Shown here piece by piece: positions 8,347 to 62,388 of a stretch of 64,000 nt of DNA (positions are counted from its first letter, which is position 1; the number at the start of each line of letters is the position of its first letter). A model generated the notes under the pieces. That model saw only the letters and a list, made by a program, of their open reading frames with translations, did no database searches and was not told the origin of the DNA. The stretch lies in the NCBI RefSeq assembly GCF_028728065.1, contig NZ_CP117811.1, positions 744,001 through 808,000 of the forward strand, read 5' to 3'. The position numbers and the translations under genes were made by a program. The stretch is from Lentisphaera profundi (GTDB lineage: Bacteria > Verrucomicrobiota > Lentisphaeria > Lentisphaerales > Lentisphaeraceae).

Positions 8347-8640
8347 TCATATGCCCTCCCGCCTTTTTTCTTCCCCCGCATTATTCCTTAAGAACTTTTT
8401 TATTTCATTCGAAGTAAAAGATTTCCATGAATGAATAAGATCACTCAAAGAATGCCCCTCATAAGTCTTAATCAAAACATGCACATGATTGGGTATCACC
8501 ACATACGATATCAAATCATAACACTCCCCATCAAAAAACGTCCAGGTATCTAGGACTATTTGAGCAGAAGCAGGATTTCTAAGCACACAGGAACCGTAGC
8601 CCTTATCGAGAAGTCTTTCAATTTCCTTGCGTTCTGAGCA
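8347..8640 (-). pseudogene. Truncated REP-associated tyrosine transposase (Y1/HUH family)
   Basis: The readable frame starts directly after a TAA at 8641-8643 with CSERKEIERLLDKGYGSC and continues through SYVVIPNHVHVLIKTYEG. NHVHVLI is the HUH metal site of IS200-like and RAYT transposases. There is no ATG at the 5' end, and the protein stops before the region that should hold the catalytic tyrosine, so both ends are missing. A hairpin repeat of the kind such enzymes mobilise lies a few bases from its 5' break. Non-functional as it stands. Confidence 0.75.
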
Positions 8641-8647
8641 TTATTTT

Positions 8648-10028: not shown

Positions 10029-11363
10029 TTAACTCTCCAAAATATCATTATTAAATAAATTCATGGCGTCAAAATGATCTTTTAAATAATCAGACCTGGT
10101 AGTCCTGTCATTATGATCAGTTTTCAATTCTCTAACTAAACGTGAATCGTGATTATTATTTTTCATTCCCAATACTAATTCATAGCATTGTGAGATTCCA
10201 ATATTGAAAGTGGTGATTTTAAGATTCAAAACATCATTGTAAAAACGGTCGGATTTAAGGACGTTAACATCATTTCCGGTCATTCTTTTATAGGCTAGAT
10301 GTAGGGTTTCGTTCCTAGAACTTTCACTTTTTAAAAAGTAAAAGAAATCTAGTTTTATATCTTCCATTATAACAAAAAGCTGAACTAGAAAAAGATTTAA
10401 ATTTTTATCACTAGAGTTCATTATTAAAAAGATTTTCGAATACATTCTATTAATTGTTCTGAGTTCAATATTAAAGTCATTAAACAAAGAACTCATAAGA
10501 CGTTTACTCAGTTCTGGTGAGTTATCAGATTGAGAAATTCGATTGGCGTAAGGCATCGGATATTTCTCAAAGATGAGCTCAATAAATCCACATGTGTCTG
10601 GCTTAGGTAATATTGTCTGTTGGTCAAAGAAGCGTTCTAAATACTTAGATGCAGAAAACTCATCACCATAAAACTTTTTAACCGTAGCTGAGAGTTGGTC
10701 GTTATCTGTAGCAATGACAAAGATAATATTATCAATCTCAAAAAAATGTTTAATTTTTTCTAGTACTTCAACAGAAAAACTTGGACGGCAGCGATCTAGC
10801 TCATCAATGAAGATGAACACTTTGCCATTACTTGATAGGTCTGTTGATTTTTGTAATGAGGTTTTATAATTCTCTAATTCACTTTGTTTGTTCTGAAATG
10901 AATCTATTACCTTTTGACCAAACACATCTGTAATAGCATCTACAGTTTCATCTCCAATAAATTTTTTCCCTAAACCAAGAATTAATTTTCCTCCAGTATC
11001 TAAAATCGAATTATAAATATCTTTTTGCTTTTGATCGTTTCTCGGTAGGTTATCTGCAATAGTAGCAAAAATAGGTGGGAAAGCATTTTCTTCATGATCA
11101 TGCTTCCAAGCATTGAAATATATACAAAGCTTATTTTCGGACAATAATTGTTTTTGCCACTCTCTTAGGAAGTACGTTTTTCCAGAACCCCACTCTGAGT
11201 CGATATTTAAAACAAAGTCAGATTGAGTATTTTCTAAAAAACGAGTTAAGACTTCTGCAAATTTCGCTCGATCACCATCACGTCCCTTGAAAGCATCACT
11301 TTCAAAAGCCGAATCACCTGATGGTGAGTACTCACGATTCTTTAAAGAGTAATTTTCAACCAT
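10029..11363 (-). CDS. KAP family P-loop NTPase
   Basis: KAP NTPases (Kidins220/ARMS and PifA) include bacterial proteins tied to phage exclusion, such as PifA of the F plasmid. Counting from the ATG at 11363, the 444-residue protein has Walker A GSGKT at 59-63, the FNAW strand at 83-86, and Walker B VFIFIDELDRC at about 182-192. A sensor-like VIATDND follows (about 213-219). I see no pair of membrane helices inserted between the Walker motifs, unlike many KAP proteins, so it may be soluble. A TTG four codons upstream is an alternative start. Its stop is two bases before the start of a DUF3800 fragment. Its leader lies within a 702-bp direct repeat. Confidence 0.85.
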   Translation of the reverse strand: MVENYSLKNREYSPSGDSAFESDAFKGRDGDRAKFAEVLTRFLENTQSDFVLNIDSEWGSGKTYFLREWQKQLLSENKLCIYFNAWKHDHEENAFPPIFATIADNLPRNDQKQKDIYNSILDTGGKLILGLGKKFIGDETVDAITDVFGQKVIDSFQNKQSELENYKTSLQKSTDLSSNGKVFIFIDELDRCRPSFSVEVLEKIKHFFEIDNIIFVIATDNDQLSATVKKFYGDEFSASKYLERFFDQQTILPKPDTCGFIELIFEKYPMPYANRISQSDNSPELSKRLMSSLFNDFNIELRTINRMYSKIFLIMNSSDKNLNLFLVQLFVIMEDIKLDFFYFLKSESSRNETLHLAYKRMTGNDVNVLKSDRFYNDVLNLKITTFNIGISQCYELVLGMKNNNHDSRLVRELKTDHNDRTTRSDYLKDHFDAMNLFNNDILES

Positions 11364-11535
11364 CAGAGATTCCAACTATTCAAAATTAAGCATTTAGAAT
11401 TCAACATTATTAGAATTCTCTTTTGAACGCGTTTTTTACTCGGAGAGAACTCATCTTTCCAAAACATATCCCAAATACGATTATTCTTAATTTTATCCGT
11501 AATCATTTAGCCAACCCTCGTTTTTTCTTTTAATG

Positions 11536-11698
11536 CCGCAAGGATTGCGGTGCTCCCAGCGTTTTCGTAAATGCGGGCGAGACGCCCGCGCTCCCAGCAA
11601 GTCCTAAATCTCTCATCTTTTTATGCAGGCAAGATGCCTGCGCTCCCAGGTTTTATTTCCTCAGCTTTTTTAATGCCGCATGGAATGCGTGCTCCCAG
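11536..11698. repeat. Four REP-like hairpins (GCTCCCAG family)
   Basis: CCGCAA-GGA-TTGCGG (11536-11550), GCGGGC-GAGAC-GCCCGC (11573-11589), GCAGGC-AAGAT-GCCTGC (11625-11641) and CGCA-TGGAA-TGCG (about 11677-11689). Each is followed by (T)GCTCCCAG. The stems differ at several positions yet remain paired. This stretch and the rest of 11376-11802 show no convincing gene. Confidence 0.75.
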
Positions 11699-11802
11699 CT
11701 CTTGTCCGCTCGTGTGGCAACACTAAATTAGGGTGAAGATGATAGAAATCATGTGCAAGTTATGGAGAATTATAGAGAAAATATCCATAAATAGGCTCAG
11801 AT

Positions 11803-11833
11803 AAAGAAAAAGGCCCGACAAAGTTGTCGTGCC
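11803..11833 (-). terminator. Rho-independent terminator of the chimeric prepilin
   Basis: Read on the minus strand, GGCACGACAA and TTGTCGGGCC form a ten-base stem with one mismatch around CT, followed by TTTTTCTTT. An identical copy at 13607-13637 serves the discoidin gene. Confidence 0.8.
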
Positions 11834-11939
11834 TGACTACGCTACAATTAAGTTAGAATACTAAGTTCTTAAATCAAAGCCAACACGGAGTGTTATTTAT
11901 CACTACTACTCAAGTAGGTTTTACCCGATCTGTAAATTT

Positions 11940-12707
11940 TCAAATATAAATTAATTTATCAGCTTTTTTTGGACTTGTGGGTTTCTTTGGTTGAGTGGTT
12001 TTTTTTGGCGGCGCGGGTTTGACTGTTTGCGGTAGTTTAACGGAGTCTTCTTCTTTCGAGAGGAATTTTTTTGAAGTCGATGGCAAGAAGGTACTTCTGA
12101 CACTGCCATCGGCAAAACCGATGTTTGAAAACATTTGTTTTCCATGCTGAGAATGAGTTCCCGCCCAATCAGAATATCCCGAAATCGCGTACTGTCGACT
12201 GCCCAAGTTCCTAGGGGCGACGAATTCTCTAATCATAACCGTTGAAGAAGGCTTTGCAACATCAGCTTGTGTTGCCGAGCCCTTAGTCCAGCTTAAGTTT
12301 GAGTTGAGTATGTAATTTCTCTTTGGGTAACCAGCAGCATCTATCTGGCTAAATTCCGCGGATGGGCAATAATATAACTTGTCCCCTCCCTGCACATTAT
12401 TTGGATGAATCCAGTTCCAATACGTCCACCCCAATAACATCTTTCGACCATCATAGCCATCTAAAGCCAAGTAGTCATCCCAGACATCATTTGTACGGTA
12501 CTTTTTAAGGCCAACAACATAGTGATCTTGGTTGTCATCGGGAACCATCAGTAAAAACGTAGAAACTTGTTTGAGGTTATTGATACATACAGATGTCTTA
12601 GCTTTCCTTCTTGCTTTACCAAGGCTAGGTAAAAGTAAGGATCCAAGAATGCCGATGATTGCGACAACTACCAAGATTTCAATGAGGGTAAAATTTTTCT
12701 TATTCAT
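11940..12707 (-). CDS. Chimeric type II secretion-type prepilin
   Basis: A secreted prepilin-like protein with an N-terminal methylation motif, [16 protein letters not shown] (residues 6-21), cleaved before Phe6, and a hydrophobic helix. The body ends in [16 protein letters not shown], the C-terminal DG motif of planctomycete/lentisphaerote prepilins. Residues 1-211 equal the intact copy at 29687-30364 except Asn/Ser at 74. The natural end ([12 protein letters not shown]) is replaced in frame by the Pro/Lys-rich last 44 residues of the neighbouring discoidin gene. AAAGGA precedes the ATG. Whether the hybrid folds or is exported is unknown. Confidence 0.85.
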   Translation of the reverse strand: MNKKNFTLIEILVVVAIIGILGSLLLPSLGKARRKAKTSVCINNLKQVSTFLLMVPDDNQDHYVVGLKKYRTNDVWDDYLALDGYDGRKMLLGWTYWNWIHPNNVQGGDKLYYCPSAEFSQIDAAGYPKRNYILNSNLSWTKGSATQADVAKPSSTVMIREFVAPRNLGSRQYAISGYSDWAGTHSQHGKQMFSNIGFADGSVRSTFLPSTSKKFLSKEEDSVKLPQTVKPAPPKKTTQPKKPTSPKKADKLIYI

Positions 12708-13176
12708 AATTTTTCCTTTTTCAATACCTATTTATAGAACTCTATATTCTGTTAATGTGTAAAACACGCATAATAAGCACCTTGCTACTGTATAATTTTT
12801 TTATTATGATGTATAATGAATCTAATATGTAAAAATATGCACTATCTCGAGCCTGATGCAGAGTTGTTTTATCACTATTCAGCAAGAACTTATGACTTTA
12901 AGAGATTACCTAAAAAGGCCGTTTTTTGAAGCTATTAATTTGGTGACAATAGCATCGAAGATGCGTCATGTTTTTAGCCTTGGGGGTAGGCGAAGCTCAC
13001 TCCCAAGGAATCGATTATCCATCACTAGATCATCGAAGATGGTCAATTAATTCGCCCTCGTCGAGGACGAGATTTACAATCTGTTTTTTCACCTGGGGTT
13101 TTACTCCAGGCTAAGTACATTCATCCTCTCCGAGGGTGTAAAATCATGCTTCCGTTTTTCAAATACAATGATTTTC
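12071..13176. repeat. Duplicated block A, copy 1 (about 1.1 kb)
   Basis: Matches 29728-30833 at offset 17657 with two substitutions noted (near 12487 and 12797). It contains the prepilin body and about 470 bases upstream with several small inverted repeats, such as GCATC-GAA-GATGC and CCTGG...CCAGG. A short plus-strand frame at 12837-12929 (MHYLEPDAELFYHYS...) is present in both copies and may be a gene fragment, but I cannot support it. Confidence 0.9.
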
Positions 13177-13876
13177 CAACTATTCAAAATTAAGCATTTA
13201 GAATTCAACATTATTAGAATTCTCTTTTGAACGCGTTTTTTACTCGGAGAGAACTCATCTTTCCAAAACATATCCCAAATACGATTATTCTTAATTTTAT
13301 CCGTAATCATTTAGCCAACCCTCGTTTTTTCTTTTAATGCCGCAAGGATTGCGGTGCTCCCAGCGTTTTCGTAAATGCGGGCGAGACGCCCGCGCTCCCA
13401 GCAAGTCCTAAATCTCTCATCTTTTTATGCAGGCAAGATGCCTGCGCTCCCAGGTTTTATTTCCTCAGCTTTTTTAATGCCGCATGGAATGCGTGCTCCC
13501 AGCTCTTGTCCGCTCGTGTGGCAACACTAAATTAGGGTGAAGATGATAGAAATCATGTGCAAGTTATGGAGAATTATAGAGAAAATATCCATAAATAGGC
13601 TCAGATAAAGAAAAAGGCCCGACAAAGTTGTCGTGCCTGACTACGCTACAATTAAGTTAGAATACTAAGTTCTTAAATCAAAGCCAACACGGAGTGTTAT
13701 TTATCACTACTACTCAAGTAGGTTTTACCCGATCTGTAAATTTTCAAATATAAATTAATTTATCAGCTTTTTTTGGACTTGTGGGTTTCTTTGGTTGAGT
13801 GGTTTTTTTTGGCGGCGCGGGTTTGACTGTTTGCGGTAGTTTAACGGAGTCTTCTTCTTTCGAGAGGAATTTTTTT
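13175..13876. repeat. Direct repeat B, copy 2 (about 702 bp)
   Basis: Second copy of 11371-12072. It joins block A at 13175 and continues into the discoidin gene at 13877, which is the natural context of its right end. REP-like hairpins sit at 13340, 13377, 13429 and 13480. Bases 13177-13606 otherwise hold nothing I can call. Confidence 0.9.
13607..13637 (-). terminator. Rho-independent terminator of the discoidin gene
   Basis: Same sequence as 11803-11833: a ten-base stem around CT, with a T-run on the minus strand. It lies about 105 bases beyond the stop codon. Confidence 0.8.
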
Positions 13877-14322
13877 AGTGTTTTTCCATTGAGTTTAATC
13901 TCAATAATCGAGAAGCCATACTTTGTTTTTCTCTTAATTAAATCAAACATTATGTATCTAACTTGTATGGGTGATTCTAATTTTATGTAATCGGGAGTTG
14001 CACGGTTTTTATTCGTTTTATTATGAATTGTGGTCCATTTTTTATTATCTGTGGACACTTTAATATTGTAGTCTTGAGCGTATGAGTCCTGCCAGAAAAT
14101 TTTAACTTGCTTGAGTGTGTAAATTTTTGGAAGTTCGATGCTCAAAAATTGTTTATTAGCAAACTGAGAACTCCAGCGTGTGTTCATTTTGCCATCAAAG
14201 GCATTCGATTCTTGAAATCACAGAGAATTTTTTTCTCGCGAACTAGCCGTGATTATAGCTTCTTGTGAGGATAGGTACTGAAACTGTAATAAGACTAAAA
14301 ATATCAATAGATAAACCTTCAT
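13744..14322 (-). pseudogene. Secreted F5/8 type C (discoidin) domain protein with in-frame TGA
   Basis: From the ATG at 14322 the frame reads a signal peptide (MKVYLLIFLVLLQFQYLSSQ), then ITASSREKNSL, a TGA at 14218-14220 (codon 35), and continues in the same frame with FQESNAFDGKMNTRWSSQ. That is the start of a discoidin fold, usually a carbohydrate-binding module. The domain runs to about residue 150, followed by a Pro/Lys-rich tail. Without the TGA the product would be 192 residues. No other lesion is seen. It could be a recent nonsense mutation, a sequencing error or readthrough; translation from Met46 would lose the signal peptide. Confidence 0.75.
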
Positions 14323-29686: not shown

Positions 29687-30364
29687 TTAATCTAAATCAT
29701 ACATGTCTTCGGAGCCAGAACCCAGGGTTGAAGTCGATGGCAAGAAGGTACTTCTGACACTGCCATCGGCAAAACCGATGTTTGAAAACATTTGTTTTCC
29801 ATGCTGAGAATGAGTTCCCGCCCAATCAGAATATCCCGAAATCGCGTACTGTCGACTGCCCAAGTTCCTAGGGGCGACGAATTCTCTAATCATAACCGTT
29901 GAAGAAGGCTTTGCAACATCAGCTTGTGTTGCCGAGCCCTTAGTCCAGCTTAAGTTTGAGTTGAGTATGTAATTTCTCTTTGGGTAACCAGCAGCATCTA
30001 TCTGGCTAAATTCCGCGGATGGGCAATAATATAACTTGTCCCCTCCCTGCACATTATTTGGATGAATCCAGTTCCAATACGTCCACCCCAATAACATCTT
30101 TCGACCATCATAGCCATCTAAAGCCAAGTAGTCATCCCAGACATCACTTGTACGGTACTTTTTAAGGCCAACAACATAGTGATCTTGGTTGTCATCGGGA
30201 ACCATCAGTAAAAACGTAGAAACTTGTTTGAGGTTATTGATACATACAGATGTCTTAGCTTTCCTTCTTGCTTTACCAAGGCTAGGTAAAAGTAAGGATC
30301 CAAGAATGCCGATGATTGCGACAACTACCAAGATTTCAATGAGGGTAAAATTTTTCTTATTCAT
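29687..30364 (-). CDS. Type II secretion-type prepilin (intact copy)
   Basis: 225-residue prepilin with a short basic leader (MNKKN) and the [16 protein letters not shown] helix. Glu at +5 after the cleavage site is the residue needed for pilin assembly. The body has CINNLKQ (about 40-46) and the [20 protein letters not shown] region (about 95-122). The C-terminal block reads [28 protein letters not shown]. Such proteins are numerous in Lentisphaerae and Planctomycetes; they may be pseudopilins or surface proteins. AAAGGA precedes the ATG. This copy has the family-like C terminus, so it is probably the donor of the chimeric copy at 11940. Confidence 0.88.
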
Positions 30365-30833
30365 AATTTTTCCTTTTTCAATACCTATTTATAGAACTCT
30401 ATATTCTGTTAATGTGTAAAACACGCATAATAAGCACCTTGCTACTGTATAATTGTTTTATTATGATGTATAATGAATCTAATATGTAAAAATATGCACT
30501 ATCTCGAGCCTGATGCAGAGTTGTTTTATCACTATTCAGCAAGAACTTATGACTTTAAGAGATTACCTAAAAAGGCCGTTTTTTGAAGCTATTAATTTGG
30601 TGACAATAGCATCGAAGATGCGTCATGTTTTTAGCCTTGGGGGTAGGCGAAGCTCACTCCCAAGGAATCGATTATCCATCACTAGATCATCGAAGATGGT
30701 CAATTAATTCGCCCTCGTCGAGGACGAGATTTACAATCTGTTTTTTCACCTGGGGTTTTACTCCAGGCTAAGTACATTCATCCTCTCCGAGGGTGTAAAA
30801 TCATGCTTCCGTTTTTCAAATACAATGATTTTC
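29728..30833. repeat. Duplicated block A, copy 2 (about 1.1 kb)
   Basis: Matches 12071-13176 (offset 17657) with two substitutions noted. The region upstream of the prepilin start (30365-30833) carries only inverted repeats such as GCATC-GAA-GATGC and CTCGTC-GAG-GACGAG and no gene I can support. Confidence 0.9.
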
Positions 30834-46203: not shown

Positions 46204-46616
46204 TTAGGCCAAGGTAGTCCCTTTCCTGTCTCGATTAAGGTTTTTAGTTGTGATATGGAGCCTGGCCAATGGTTTTTACTGACATCTATAACGGGATCAT
46301 TATCTTTGATATCGTCAATGATGATACTCAAAGAAGACATTTTTCCCAAGGGATAAAAAATAATTTTGACCACGACTGTTGAGTTGGTTTCCGCGTAGTT
46401 TAATTCAATCTCGATCAGCTTATTCACATTTATTTTTTTGAATTTAGCATTCAAAATATGGATTTCCGACGTGCCTAAAGAAAAGCCTTTGCCTTCTTGG
46501 AAGTCAAAGGAGTTCAAAGGAGCGATTTGGAATTGAGCGAAGAGTTGTTGCTTGGCAAAGTATGGCCAGATCTGTTCTACTTCGGCTGCTATAAAACTTA
46601 TATATTCATATTGCAT
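46200..46616 (-). CDS. SRPBCC/AHSA1-like domain protein
   Basis: 138 residues from the ATG at 46616 (MQYEYISFIAAEVEQIWPYF), preceded by AGGA; an ATG 27 codons upstream (46697) is possible but adds a lysine-rich segment that does not fit the fold. The IAAEVEQIWPYFAKQQLFAQF start and the final HWPGSISQLKTLIETG helix are the two most recognisable parts of START/AHSA1-like ligand-binding folds. Ligand unknown. It converges with the kinase gene (four-base overlap) and is divergent from the antiporter. Confidence 0.6.
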   Translation of the reverse strand: MQYEYISFIAAEVEQIWPYFAKQQLFAQFQIAPLNSFDFQEGKGFSLGTSEIHILNAKFKKINVNKLIEIELNYAETNSTVVVKIIFYPLGKMSSLSIIIDDIKDNDPVIDVSKNHWPGSISQLKTLIETGKGLPWPN

Positions 46617-46731
46617 AAAATGATTTATCCTAGTTTTTTTATAACTTGTCTCATAATCATACTTTGGCAAGATACATTTCTTGATTTTTGCCATCAAAGT
46701 ATTAGCCTTAATGACTGTGAATTGATAGGGA

Positions 46732-54871: not shown

Positions 54872-55168
54872 TTATTCGCAGTAAGGACAGCAATTCGCAG
54901 CAAGTTCTTCACTGCATTGGGAGCAGTACTTTAAGCTTAAACTTTCTTTTAAAAGTTTATCAATTTGCTGTTCTTCAATATCGGATAAAACTACTGAATC
55001 TAGTAGAGCATTGGTTTTCTTTTGCATACTTTGCCTTTCTTTAATGGCAAAGTTTTGAGCGTTCATTGTGCGGCTTAGATGAAGGTACGCGAAGGGACCT
55101 TTAGTTTGCTTAGTTTTTGGAGTTATGTTGGTAGGGTTTAGACTTGGACGGACATAAACATTTGGCAT
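54872..55168 (-). CDS. Small zinc-ribbon-tailed protein
   Basis: 98 residues, strong AAGGAG ribosome site before the ATG. The protein is mostly helical and polar, ending in CSQCSEELAANCCPYCE, a CxxC...CxxC cluster that probably binds zinc. No family recognised. Its stop is next to the AlkD-like start, so the two are probably co-translated and the small protein could help in nucleic-acid handling (inference from context). Confidence 0.75.
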   Translation of the reverse strand: MPNVYVRPSLNPTNITPKTKQTKGPFAYLHLSRTMNAQNFAIKERQSMQKKTNALLDSVVLSDIEEQQIDKLLKESLSLKYCSQCSEELAANCCPYCE

Positions 55169-59058: not shown

Positions 59059-59759
59059 TTATGAGTTAGGTAAGTAATGCTCTAGTATGCACTCGGATCG
59101 TTTTATTGATTTTAAGGTCCAATCAATTTTGGTGTCTAAAGTTTTTTCTGAATTCAATTGATAGGGCACTTCTTGCTCAATGAGTTTATTTCTCAATGTT
59201 GAAAGAGATAAAGCGGAAGCAACTGATACATTAAAACTTTGAATGAAGCCACTCATGGGTATGTACACCATGTAATCAGCAAGTTCATGTGCTTCTTCGC
59301 TCAGTCCAGTTAATTCAGTTCCAAAACACAAGGCGAGGGGCTGGTCTACTGGTAGTTCATCGATAGTTATAGAGTCGGGGCGTAGACTGGTTGCACATAT
59401 TTTATAGCCTTGATCTTTTAAGGATTTGAGGCAATTACGTGTGTTGTTCTGACTCTCTTCATTCCATGCTTTAATATCGAGCCACTTATGTGCCGACATA
59501 GAGATTTCTTTGTTGGCTGCGAAATCATTATTATTTTCGATAACATGTATGTTTTGTATGCCAAAAGCATCTGCATTTCTTAAGATAGCAGATGCATTAT
59601 GTTCTTGGTAAAGATTTTCCAAAACAAGACAGATATGCTCGGTTCTTTGTGAGCACACCTTATCAATAAGCTCAATACGATCATTAATTAAATGAGATTG
59701 AAGCTTATCGAGTAAAGATTTTTTTGGGTATGGGTTAAAGCACTTAAAGACTGAGTCAT
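59059..59759 (-). CDS. trmH: TrmH-type tRNA 2'-O-methyltransferase interrupted by an apparent frameshift
   Basis: SpoU/TrmH knot methyltransferase, probably of tRNA G18. Motifs: NASAILRNADAFG, LCFGTELTGLS and YIPMSGFIQSFNVSVA. The ATG at 59759 directly follows the TAA of the upstream gene and reads MTQSLSALTHTQK. At a run of seven A (59719-59725) the frame must shift by -1, or gain one A, to continue KSLLDKLQSHLINDRIELID and DKVCSQRTEHICLVLENLY, which is the family's normal N-terminal region. A GTG at 59658 would give a truncated 199-residue form; intact length is about 233. Sequencing error, recent mutation and programmed slippage are all possible. Confidence 0.8.
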
Positions 59760-61694
59760 TTATTTAGTCATGTAAAAGTAAATGCCAACACCTAAGAGTA
59801 GGAGAAGATTAAAGATGCCAATCTTTATTTTGATTGCTTTTGATTTGACTCTAGTTTCTTCGTCAAGCTTCCTTCTCATATCTGAAGTTAAACCAGTTTT
59901 AGCGCGAGGGCGCTCAGTCTTTGTTTTAGGTTTTTTAGTGCGAGTTGGCTTATCACCATTTGCTCCAGGAGCTTGATCACCTGTACTAGTTTTCTTTGTG
60001 CCTGCAGTTCTTCTATGTTTTTCGGAATCAGTGTTCATGCCGGTTCTAGTCTTGGGGCCACCTTTTGCAGTTCTTTTTCCTTTTGAGCCGACGGCTCCCT
60101 TAGCACTAGGAGGACGTTTCTTAGTAGGAGTTTTTGCGCCATCTTTACTACCAGGGGGACGTTTCTTAGTAGGAGTTTTTACGCCATCTTTACTGCCAGG
60201 GGGACGTTTTTTAGTTGGAGATTTTGCACCATCTTTCTTATCCTCAGCTTTAGCGTCGTCTTTCGTGGCCTCAGCTTTAGCGTCGTCTTTCGTGGCCTCA
60301 GCTTTAGCGTCGTCTTTCTTGTCATCAGCTTTAGGATCTTCTTTCGTGGCATCAGCTTTAGGATCTTCTTTCGTGGCATCAGCTTTAGCGTCGTCTTTCG
60401 TGGCATCAGCTTTAGGATCTTCTTTCGTGGCATCAGCTTTAGCGTCGTCTCTCTTGTCATCGGCTTTAGCGTCGTCTTTCGTGCCATCGGCTTTAGCGTC
60501 GTCTTTCGTGGCATCAGCTTTAGCGTCGTCTTTCGTGGCATCAGCTTTAGCTTTTTCAGCAGCGATACGAGCTTCTTCATCTTTCTTAGCTTTTTCAGCA
60601 GCGATACGAGCCTCTTCCTTAGCCTTAGCTTCGGCGATAATACGAGCTTCTTCATCGGCCTTAGCTTTTTCAGCAGCGATACGAGCCTCTTCCTTAGCCT
60701 TAGCTTCGGCGACAATACGAGCTTCTTCATCTTTCTTAGCTTTTTCAGCAGCGATACGAGCCTCTTCCTTAGCCTTAGCTTCGGCGACAATACGAGCTTC
60801 TTCATCGGCCTTAGCTTTTTCAGCGGCAATACGAGCGTCTTCTTTAGCCTTAGTTTCAGCAGCAATACGTGCAAATTCAGCTTTTTCAACGGCAATGCGA
60901 GCGTCATTTTCAGCTTTAGCTTTTTCAACGGCAATGCGAGCAAGTTCAGCTTGTTCGGCAGCGACGCGAGCCTCTTCTTCGGCAGCGTCGGATTCAGCTT
61001 GTATGCGTGTAAATTCAGCTTCAACTTTAATTCTTTCTGCTTCGATTTGACGCTTTTTCTCTTCTAAGTCTAAGCGTTGTTTTTCCAAGGATGGAGTTTG
61101 GCTGACTTGAGCTGTGCTGAAAGTAGGTGCATTTGAATTGAATGAAGGCGCGCCAGTAATGGTCTCCGCAGAAGACATGCTTCTGGCAGTAGTAGGCGAG
61201 GCAAAACTCGGAGCCCCCATTGGTGCAGGAGCACTTCTTCGTGTATCAGTTTTAGAAAATGCAGGAGCCCCGGGGTTTGTTGAAGCATTGCCAGGATTTA
61301 AAAGGTCGTTATTTACTGGTTGCGCGACTTTGAGCTTACCTAGTTTTTTTGCAGTTGCAACGGGGGTGTTAAGAGGCATGAGGTTATTGCTAGTCTCAGT
61401 TTTCTTTACTTCGGGTTGCGTTGCTTTCATCGCTTGTTTGAGTAAATCTTGTCGGGAGAATGAAACTGTAATAGTTTCACGCATATTACCCGTGCTTTTA
61501 TCAACTTTTTTCACAGAATTCGTTTGGAACATTTCGATGTCAGAGTCAGGATCTAGAGCATCTAAAAATTGATCGGGGTTTTCAAAAATAATATTTAATC
61601 CACAAGAACCACAGTGGGCTTCCTTAGAATTATTGACAAAGGGAACGTGACCGGCACAGCTAGGGCACGAGAATTCAAAAGTTAGTTCAAACAT
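59760..61694 (-). CDS. Zinc-ribbon protein with long Ala/Glu/Lys coiled coil and low-complexity repeats, tail-anchored
   Basis: 644 residues. A zinc ribbon (C10, C13, C28, C31) is followed by a Ser/Pro/Ala-rich linker, then a long coiled coil of repeated EEARIAAEKAK/EEARIVAEAKAK units (about 205-385). Repeats of DDAKADATK type follow (about 390-480), then KTPTKKRPPGSKDG repeats (about 487-525), a Lys/Arg/Thr-rich part and one C-terminal membrane helix (about 620-641). It is probably anchored by its tail with the ribbon in the cytoplasm; role unknown. The tandem DNA repeats make length variation likely. Its stop abuts the trmH ATG. Confidence 0.78.
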   Translation of the reverse strand: MFELTFEFSCPSCAGHVPFVNNSKEAHCGSCGLNIIFENPDQFLDALDPDSDIEMFQTNSVKKVDKSTGNMRETITVSFSRQDLLKQAMKATQPEVKKTETSNNLMPLNTPVATAKKLGKLKVAQPVNNDLLNPGNASTNPGAPAFSKTDTRRSAPAPMGAPSFASPTTARSMSSAETITGAPSFNSNAPTFSTAQVSQTPSLEKQRLDLEEKKRQIEAERIKVEAEFTRIQAESDAAEEEARVAAEQAELARIAVEKAKAENDARIAVEKAEFARIAAETKAKEDARIAAEKAKADEEARIVAEAKAKEEARIAAEKAKKDEEARIVAEAKAKEEARIAAEKAKADEEARIIAEAKAKEEARIAAEKAKKDEEARIAAEKAKADATKDDAKADATKDDAKADGTKDDAKADDKRDDAKADATKEDPKADATKDDAKADATKEDPKADATKEDPKADDKKDDAKAEATKDDAKAEATKDDAKAEDKKDGAKSPTKKRPPGSKDGVKTPTKKRPPGSKDGAKTPTKKRPPSAKGAVGSKGKRTAKGGPKTRTGMNTDSEKHRRTAGTKKTSTGDQAPGANGDKPTRTKKPKTKTERPRAKTGLTSDMRRKLDEETRVKSKAIKIKIGIFNLLLLLGVGIYFYMTK

Positions 61695-61709: not shown

Positions 61710-62222
61710 TTAGGTGTTGCAGCTGATGATTTTTTCGTAGGGAAGTCGAAGAGTTTGCTCTTGCCCCTTGGGATTAATAGTCTGTATGACGAGAAGTTGT
61801 TTTTGTATTTCAATTATAAATTGAGCGGTAATAATACCTTGGTCAGTTTCAAAAATAAAGGGGCCAGCACGATGGCCGCTTTTATCAGTGGGGTATTGTT
61901 TGAAAAAGTCTTCATTGATGTCGATAGCAATGTCCAGTTCAGGGATGTCGTCATCCTCTTCTTCTTCGGAAGCAATGCTGCTGACAGTAGCGCTGGCTTT
62001 GAGTTTATTTTTCATTGAGCCAAAAATAAAAATTGGGTAGACTATAGGTAGAATTAAACCTAGGAAAAAATGGATAACATAGGTATGCCCCCGTTTTTCT
62101 GCAATTGTAGAAGAAAGGGCCGCGGAGTAAATGATAATAGTTATCATTATAAGAAGGACGATAAGGAGGCCCCAATTGAGATCGTTTATATTAATCTTTT
62201 TTAATTCATTCACTGCTATCAC
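61710..62222 (-). CDS. Small membrane protein of unknown function
   Basis: 170 residues with two membrane helices (about 18-38 and 49-69), then an acidic linker (EEEEDDDIPELD, about 88-99) and a C-terminal domain (about 105-170) predicted to be beta-rich. Family not recognised. It precedes the zinc-ribbon repeat protein by 15 bases and probably heads that operon with trmH. Confidence 0.7.
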   Translation of the reverse strand: MIAVNELKKININDLNWGLLIVLLIMITIIIYSAALSSTIAEKRGHTYVIHFFLGLILPIVYPIFIFGSMKNKLKASATVSSIASEEEEDDDIPELDIAIDINEDFFKQYPTDKSGHRAGPFIFETDQGIITAQFIIEIQKQLLVIQTINPKGQEQTLRLPYEKIISCNT

Positions 62223-62388
62223 TTCCTCTTCTGTAATCTTATAGATTTAAAATTAACTTCTGCTTAATAAGATACAAGGTTTCGAGCCTTAAATGTTATT
62301 TACTTGTCTAAAAATTAAAAAAGAAATCACTTATATTGAGCTAAGTAAGAGTTTTTTACCTCGTCTTGATAAGATTAAAAATAATTTA

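Follow-up and report, generated by a model that had tools for sequence, protein, structure and literature searches.

A private one-base deficit at a seven-A run in the trmH gene of Lentisphaera profundi: assembly error or recent ordinary mutation as the most likely origin

In the stretch of Lentisphaera profundi DNA analysed here, referred to as the window (64,000 nucleotides, positions 744,001 to 808,000 of contig NZ_CP117811.1), the gene trmH lacks one base where its sequence has seven consecutive As. Neither congener examined shares this deficit, and conserved coding sequence flanks it on either side. Most likely the case is one of assembly error or of recent ordinary mutation and not of an unusual mode of decoding; with little more than even confidence we hold that trmH is otherwise intact and that one base of a homopolymer was undercalled in a finished assembly. 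An undercalled base and a real deletion are not separable from the assembly alone, and the weights given to the several readings below are matters of judgement, not computed values. No paper on the L. profundi genome was found in the literature.

The gene lies on the minus strand. Its zero-frame ATG (59759-59757) directly follows the TAA (59762-59760) of the upstream gene, and the codons from there run into the A7 (59725-59719, T7 on the plus strand) in the phase CAA AAA AAT, which contains the heptamer A_AAA_AAT (59724-59718) as a potential slippery site. As written, the zero-frame ORF (59759-59688) yields a product of 23 aa, MTQSLSALTHTQKNLYSISFNLI*, and stops at the TAA at 59690-59688. From 59763 to 59059 the -1 frame has no stop codon; it carries the body of a TrmH-family SPOUT methyltransferase (59718-59059) and has as its first ATG, GTG or TTG a GTG at 59658-59656. 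The segment between the A7 and this GTG is coding according to the comparison with congeners (SLLDKLQSHLINDRIELIDK vs TLLTKLQSHLIDDRIELIDK). Frameshift-tolerant alignment puts the frame change at the A7 or just upstream of it; A/T runs of length 7 occur about 65 times per 100 kb, so the A7 alone is ordinary. The preliminary description of this DNA, which had an ATG abutting a stop codon, zero-frame codons entering the A7 as A_AAA_AAT and the rest of TrmH in the -1 frame, is thus borne out in coordinates and phase. The upstream gene (59760-61694, minus strand), whose synteny with trmH is conserved, encodes a repeat-rich protein with a long Ala/Lys/Glu/Asp-rich region that varies in length and composition among three Lentisphaera species; its zinc-ribbon-like N-terminal start (CxxC..CxxC) and a C-terminal membrane segment are conserved.

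The -1 frame matches PF00588, the SPOUT methylase domain, at 109.6 bits (cut-off 29.7) and also matches solved TrmH structures, 1v2x with an E value of 1.3e-26, the best solved relatives (1v2x, 1zjr and 7edc) being Gm18 methyltransferases. All three SPOUT motifs are present in this ORF. The equivalents of Asn35, Arg41, Glu124 and Asn152 of Thermus TrmH, the catalytic residues whose roles are described in PMC5372735, are aligned and invariant among nine relatives. The N-terminal segment is conserved as well, with L15 and L19 invariant out to the Bacteroidota and an Arg that falls, in the alignment, close to the tRNA-binding Arg8 of Thermus TrmH (PMC5372735). Compared with TrmH of Thermus thermophilus (1V2X) and Aquifex (1ZJR), the product belongs to the same fold family and has all of its catalytic residues in the -1 frame; the gene in the window differs in missing a base after codon 12. 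The product would be a TrmH-family SPOUT 2'-O-methyltransferase, probably acting on Gm18 of tRNA. The modified position is something we only infer, because the best model for the frame, the NCBIfam TrmH equivalog NF008295, is matched below its cut-off (115.3 vs 227 bits).

Two congeners were compared, Lentisphaera marina and another genome of the genus. Both carry an intact trmH ORF of 233 aa in the syntenic place with the same TAA|ATG junction, and at the position of the A7 the gene is exactly one base longer in both. Where the window has CAA AAA AAT, the congeners have GAG AAA CAG followed by ACT or GTA, and neither an A-run nor a slippery heptamer was found at the site in either genome. Once one base is allowed for, the protein alignment with L. 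marina is ungapped. The lesion is thus, on sequence comparison, private to the L. profundi assembly, in agreement with the earlier proposal that one base is missing, by mutation or homopolymer error. Since the segment ahead of GTG 59658 is coding and conserved, full-length trmH is the ancestral form. Between the window copy and the congeners pN is 0.15-0.18 and pS, which is saturated, about 0.8. The ratio of the trmH branch length to the congener distance is 1.09, the 33rd of 38 orthologue trios (range 0.06-1.90), a high value but no outlier. Neither pN and pS nor this branch ratio, which lies within the range of the trios, gave a sign of relaxed selection on trmH, and beyond the one-base deficit no second defect was found in the window copy. 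The downstream frame being well conserved and free of other defects, the lesion is either very recent or absent from the DNA.

One-base losses elsewhere in the genome were surveyed by frameshift-tolerant protein-to-DNA alignment, with paralogues included, over 864 kb of L. profundi (419 pairs with L. marina proteins, 69 with those of the second congener); the control directions gave 292 pairs on L. marina DNA and 142 on DNA of the second congener. The survey is partial, covering 864 kb of L. profundi, 1.86 Mb of L. marina and 139 kb of the other congener, and leaders, mobile genes and fragments were removed before counting. Three non-mobile full-length genes in the 864 kb are each one base short: trmH, at its A7; a DUF1294 gene, at a G5 (G000:C1:1131047), where L. 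marina conserves the sequence on either side and the lesion is of the same type as that of trmH; and a sulfatase, at T4C2 (G000:C1:1079412) within GGTTTTCCTTAGG, a stretch bearing the DQGF..LGEHG motif, as compared with several congener sulfatases. The same reading of the control congener DNA (about 434 pairs) gave no comparable loss, a difference (3 of about 419 pairs vs 0 of about 434) that is not significant. The assembly does not show gross homopolymer compression, as the A/T run-length spectrum is not truncated relative to the congeners; the normal spectrum excludes gross undercalling but not sporadic undercalling.

Several other matches of the survey were set aside. Those at 46614 and 62244 of the window and at 84780 in window-based numbering lie near N-termini and correspond to conserved non-coding leaders of over-extended ORFs; the leaders at about 46614-46697 and 62222-62244, upstream of the likely starts, are conserved between congeners, are not coding in both and may be regulatory. 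Matches in mobile genes (IS66 and RAYT/Y1 transposases) were likewise discounted, as was a pair of compensating shifts at C1:688685-688710, which resembles misalignment. The HGSNAT_cat match at G000:C1:1333078 is a recent gene remnant, namely a C-terminal fragment of about 83 aa, itself frameshifted, that is 95% identical to an HGSNAT-type acyltransferase of L. marina. Within the window, a second gene with the same kind of lesion had been announced in the preliminary description; among non-mobile window genes with a homologue in the compared congener DNA, the frameshift-tolerant survey found none. At about 8347-8645 lies what is left of an IS200-like/RAYT transposase (PF01797), interrupted by an internal stop and a frameshift, and the overlapping ORFs at 54872-54912, considered as a candidate for the second lesion, are two neighbouring genes. 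The argument that the lesion is systematic relied on that example in the window; two comparable losses do occur elsewhere in the genome, in the DUF1294 and sulfatase genes. A direct duplication was also noted at about 11363-12885 and 13101-14268, its copies about 1.8 kb apart and part of it present again near 30306-30771; in it the ORFs at 11940-12707 (prepilin-like) and 13744-14187 (F5/8-type C) share a 3' end, and the flanking small ORFs repeat.

An undercalled base is favoured because both congeners have an intact, syntenic trmH one base longer, because trmH shows no further damage and its branch length is not exceptional among the trios, and because two further non-mobile genes are one base short, against none in the congener DNA surveyed. 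It is favoured also by the position of the loss at a homopolymer, since errors of long-read assemblies cluster in such runs and are mostly false deletions (PMC12007338), and by base rates: in a survey of 1106 genomes, sequencing error was expected over genuine indels for protein-validated frameshifted genes without a clustered counterpart (PMC3711429). The likeness to long-read homopolymer deletion errors lies in the loss of one base from a homopolymer while the conserved gene is otherwise intact, with two similar cases in the assembly; unlike gross error of this kind, the run-length spectrum of the L. profundi assembly is not truncated. If a base was undercalled, the missing base would be a read or assembly error, and trmH in the cell would be read in a single frame over about 233 codons, starting at the ATG coupled to the upstream stop. 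Against this stand the untruncated A/T runs and the three losses, which are not significant and could all be real.

A real one-base deletion, recent and probably due to replication slippage in the A-run, is a plausible but less likely reading, second in weight. It would have inactivated trmH, leaving a fresh pseudogene or the revertible off state of a short homopolymer tract, and TrmH would be made in small amounts at most, through leaky slippage or a start at the internal GTG. Genuine indels are frequent in homopolymer runs, the branch ratio of trmH is among the higher ones, and the DUF1294 and sulfatase losses might just as well mark young pseudogenes. A loss would be tolerated, since trmH is dispensable in E. 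coli, where a disruptant had no growth defect in laboratory media (PMC5372735), a point that counts against an undercalled base. The mutation would, however, need to be very young, as there is neither a second lesion nor relaxed selection, and trmH is intact in both congeners.

It is improbable that the A7 is real and decoded, by -1 ribosomal frameshifting on A_AAA_AAU with the predicted hairpin at 59711-59663 or by RNA polymerase adding one A, either of which would join the initial 13 codons to the -1 frame and yield the complete TrmH, perhaps in a small, fixed amount. In its favour, the heptamer stands in zero-frame phase, the -1 frame is conserved beyond the A7, and the predicted hairpin, a strong one, begins 6 nt past the heptamer, within the usual spacer of 5-8 nt (PMC4066793). 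Predicted folding of 79 nt gives an MFE of -18.6 (z of -3.4, none of 200 shuffles as good; z of -2.9 with the smaller shuffle set used for the heptamer-site control), and the congener segments at the site fold at -9.4 and -11.6. Heptamer, spacer and hairpin thus come in the order seen in bacterial -1 programmed frameshifting (dnaX, IS3-family, IS911). Unlike those systems, the site is not conserved, both heptamer and hairpin being absent from the congeners with their one continuous trmH ORF; it has no SD-like stimulator in the sequence upstream of the A7 and no shorter functional zero-frame product (23 aa); and its heptamer is of a poor type in E. coli, where ZZN codons that mix purine and pyrimidine, AAU among them, are inefficient at shifting (PMC4066793). 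In-frame AAAAAAT is common (138 of the 1839 in-frame heptamers in ORFs of at least 150 aa in the 864 kb). Folding as strong as that of the trmH hairpin occurs in 1.6% of 4583 GC-matched coding windows (0.7% when comparably anchored); about 1% of coding windows reach a z of -3.36 or lower, as do 4 of 410 A_AAA_AAN sites that lie in frame in intact genes. Heptamer and hairpin are both private, and their occurring together would be a coincidence of about one in a hundred.

As for transcriptional slippage, one extra A in the mRNA would restore the frame, as at the A9 of Thermus dnaX and the runs of 8-9 A in IS elements, but unlike these the trmH run has seven As and is not conserved. E. coli RNA polymerase showed no detectable slippage in reporters on fewer than eight As, and 0.39% insertion was seen at an A7 by mRNA sequencing (PMC6260861); the A7 is thus below the eight As needed in reporters and marginal. 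There is, furthermore, no evident benefit of recoding for trmH. The slippage proposed in the preliminary description finds no support in conservation, as heptamer and hairpin are absent from the congeners, and its motif is of a weak kind in E. coli; given the heptamer, the 6-nt spacer and the strong hairpin, it keeps a low probability. Slightly more improbable still is that a newly arisen, species-private -1 signal (A_AAA_AAU, 6-nt spacer and strong hairpin) rescues or tunes the tRNA methyltransferase 12 codons past its start. Least credible of all is a functional TrmH of 199 aa starting at GTG 59658 with the upstream ATG unused: that ORF is open and keeps all three SPOUT motifs, but the codon is a Val codon, GTT or GTC, in the congeners, the conserved N-terminal segment with L15, L19 and the Arg near Thermus Arg8 would be lost, and the GTG has no clear ribosome-binding site ahead and lies at the base of the predicted hairpin.

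For annotation, a private homopolymer frameshift in a conserved gene calls for a check against the reads before the gene is called a pseudogene or a case of recoding. Should the A7 be in the DNA and full-length protein be made, trmH of L. profundi would offer a rare view of a frameshift signal arising within one species while its sisters remain intact.
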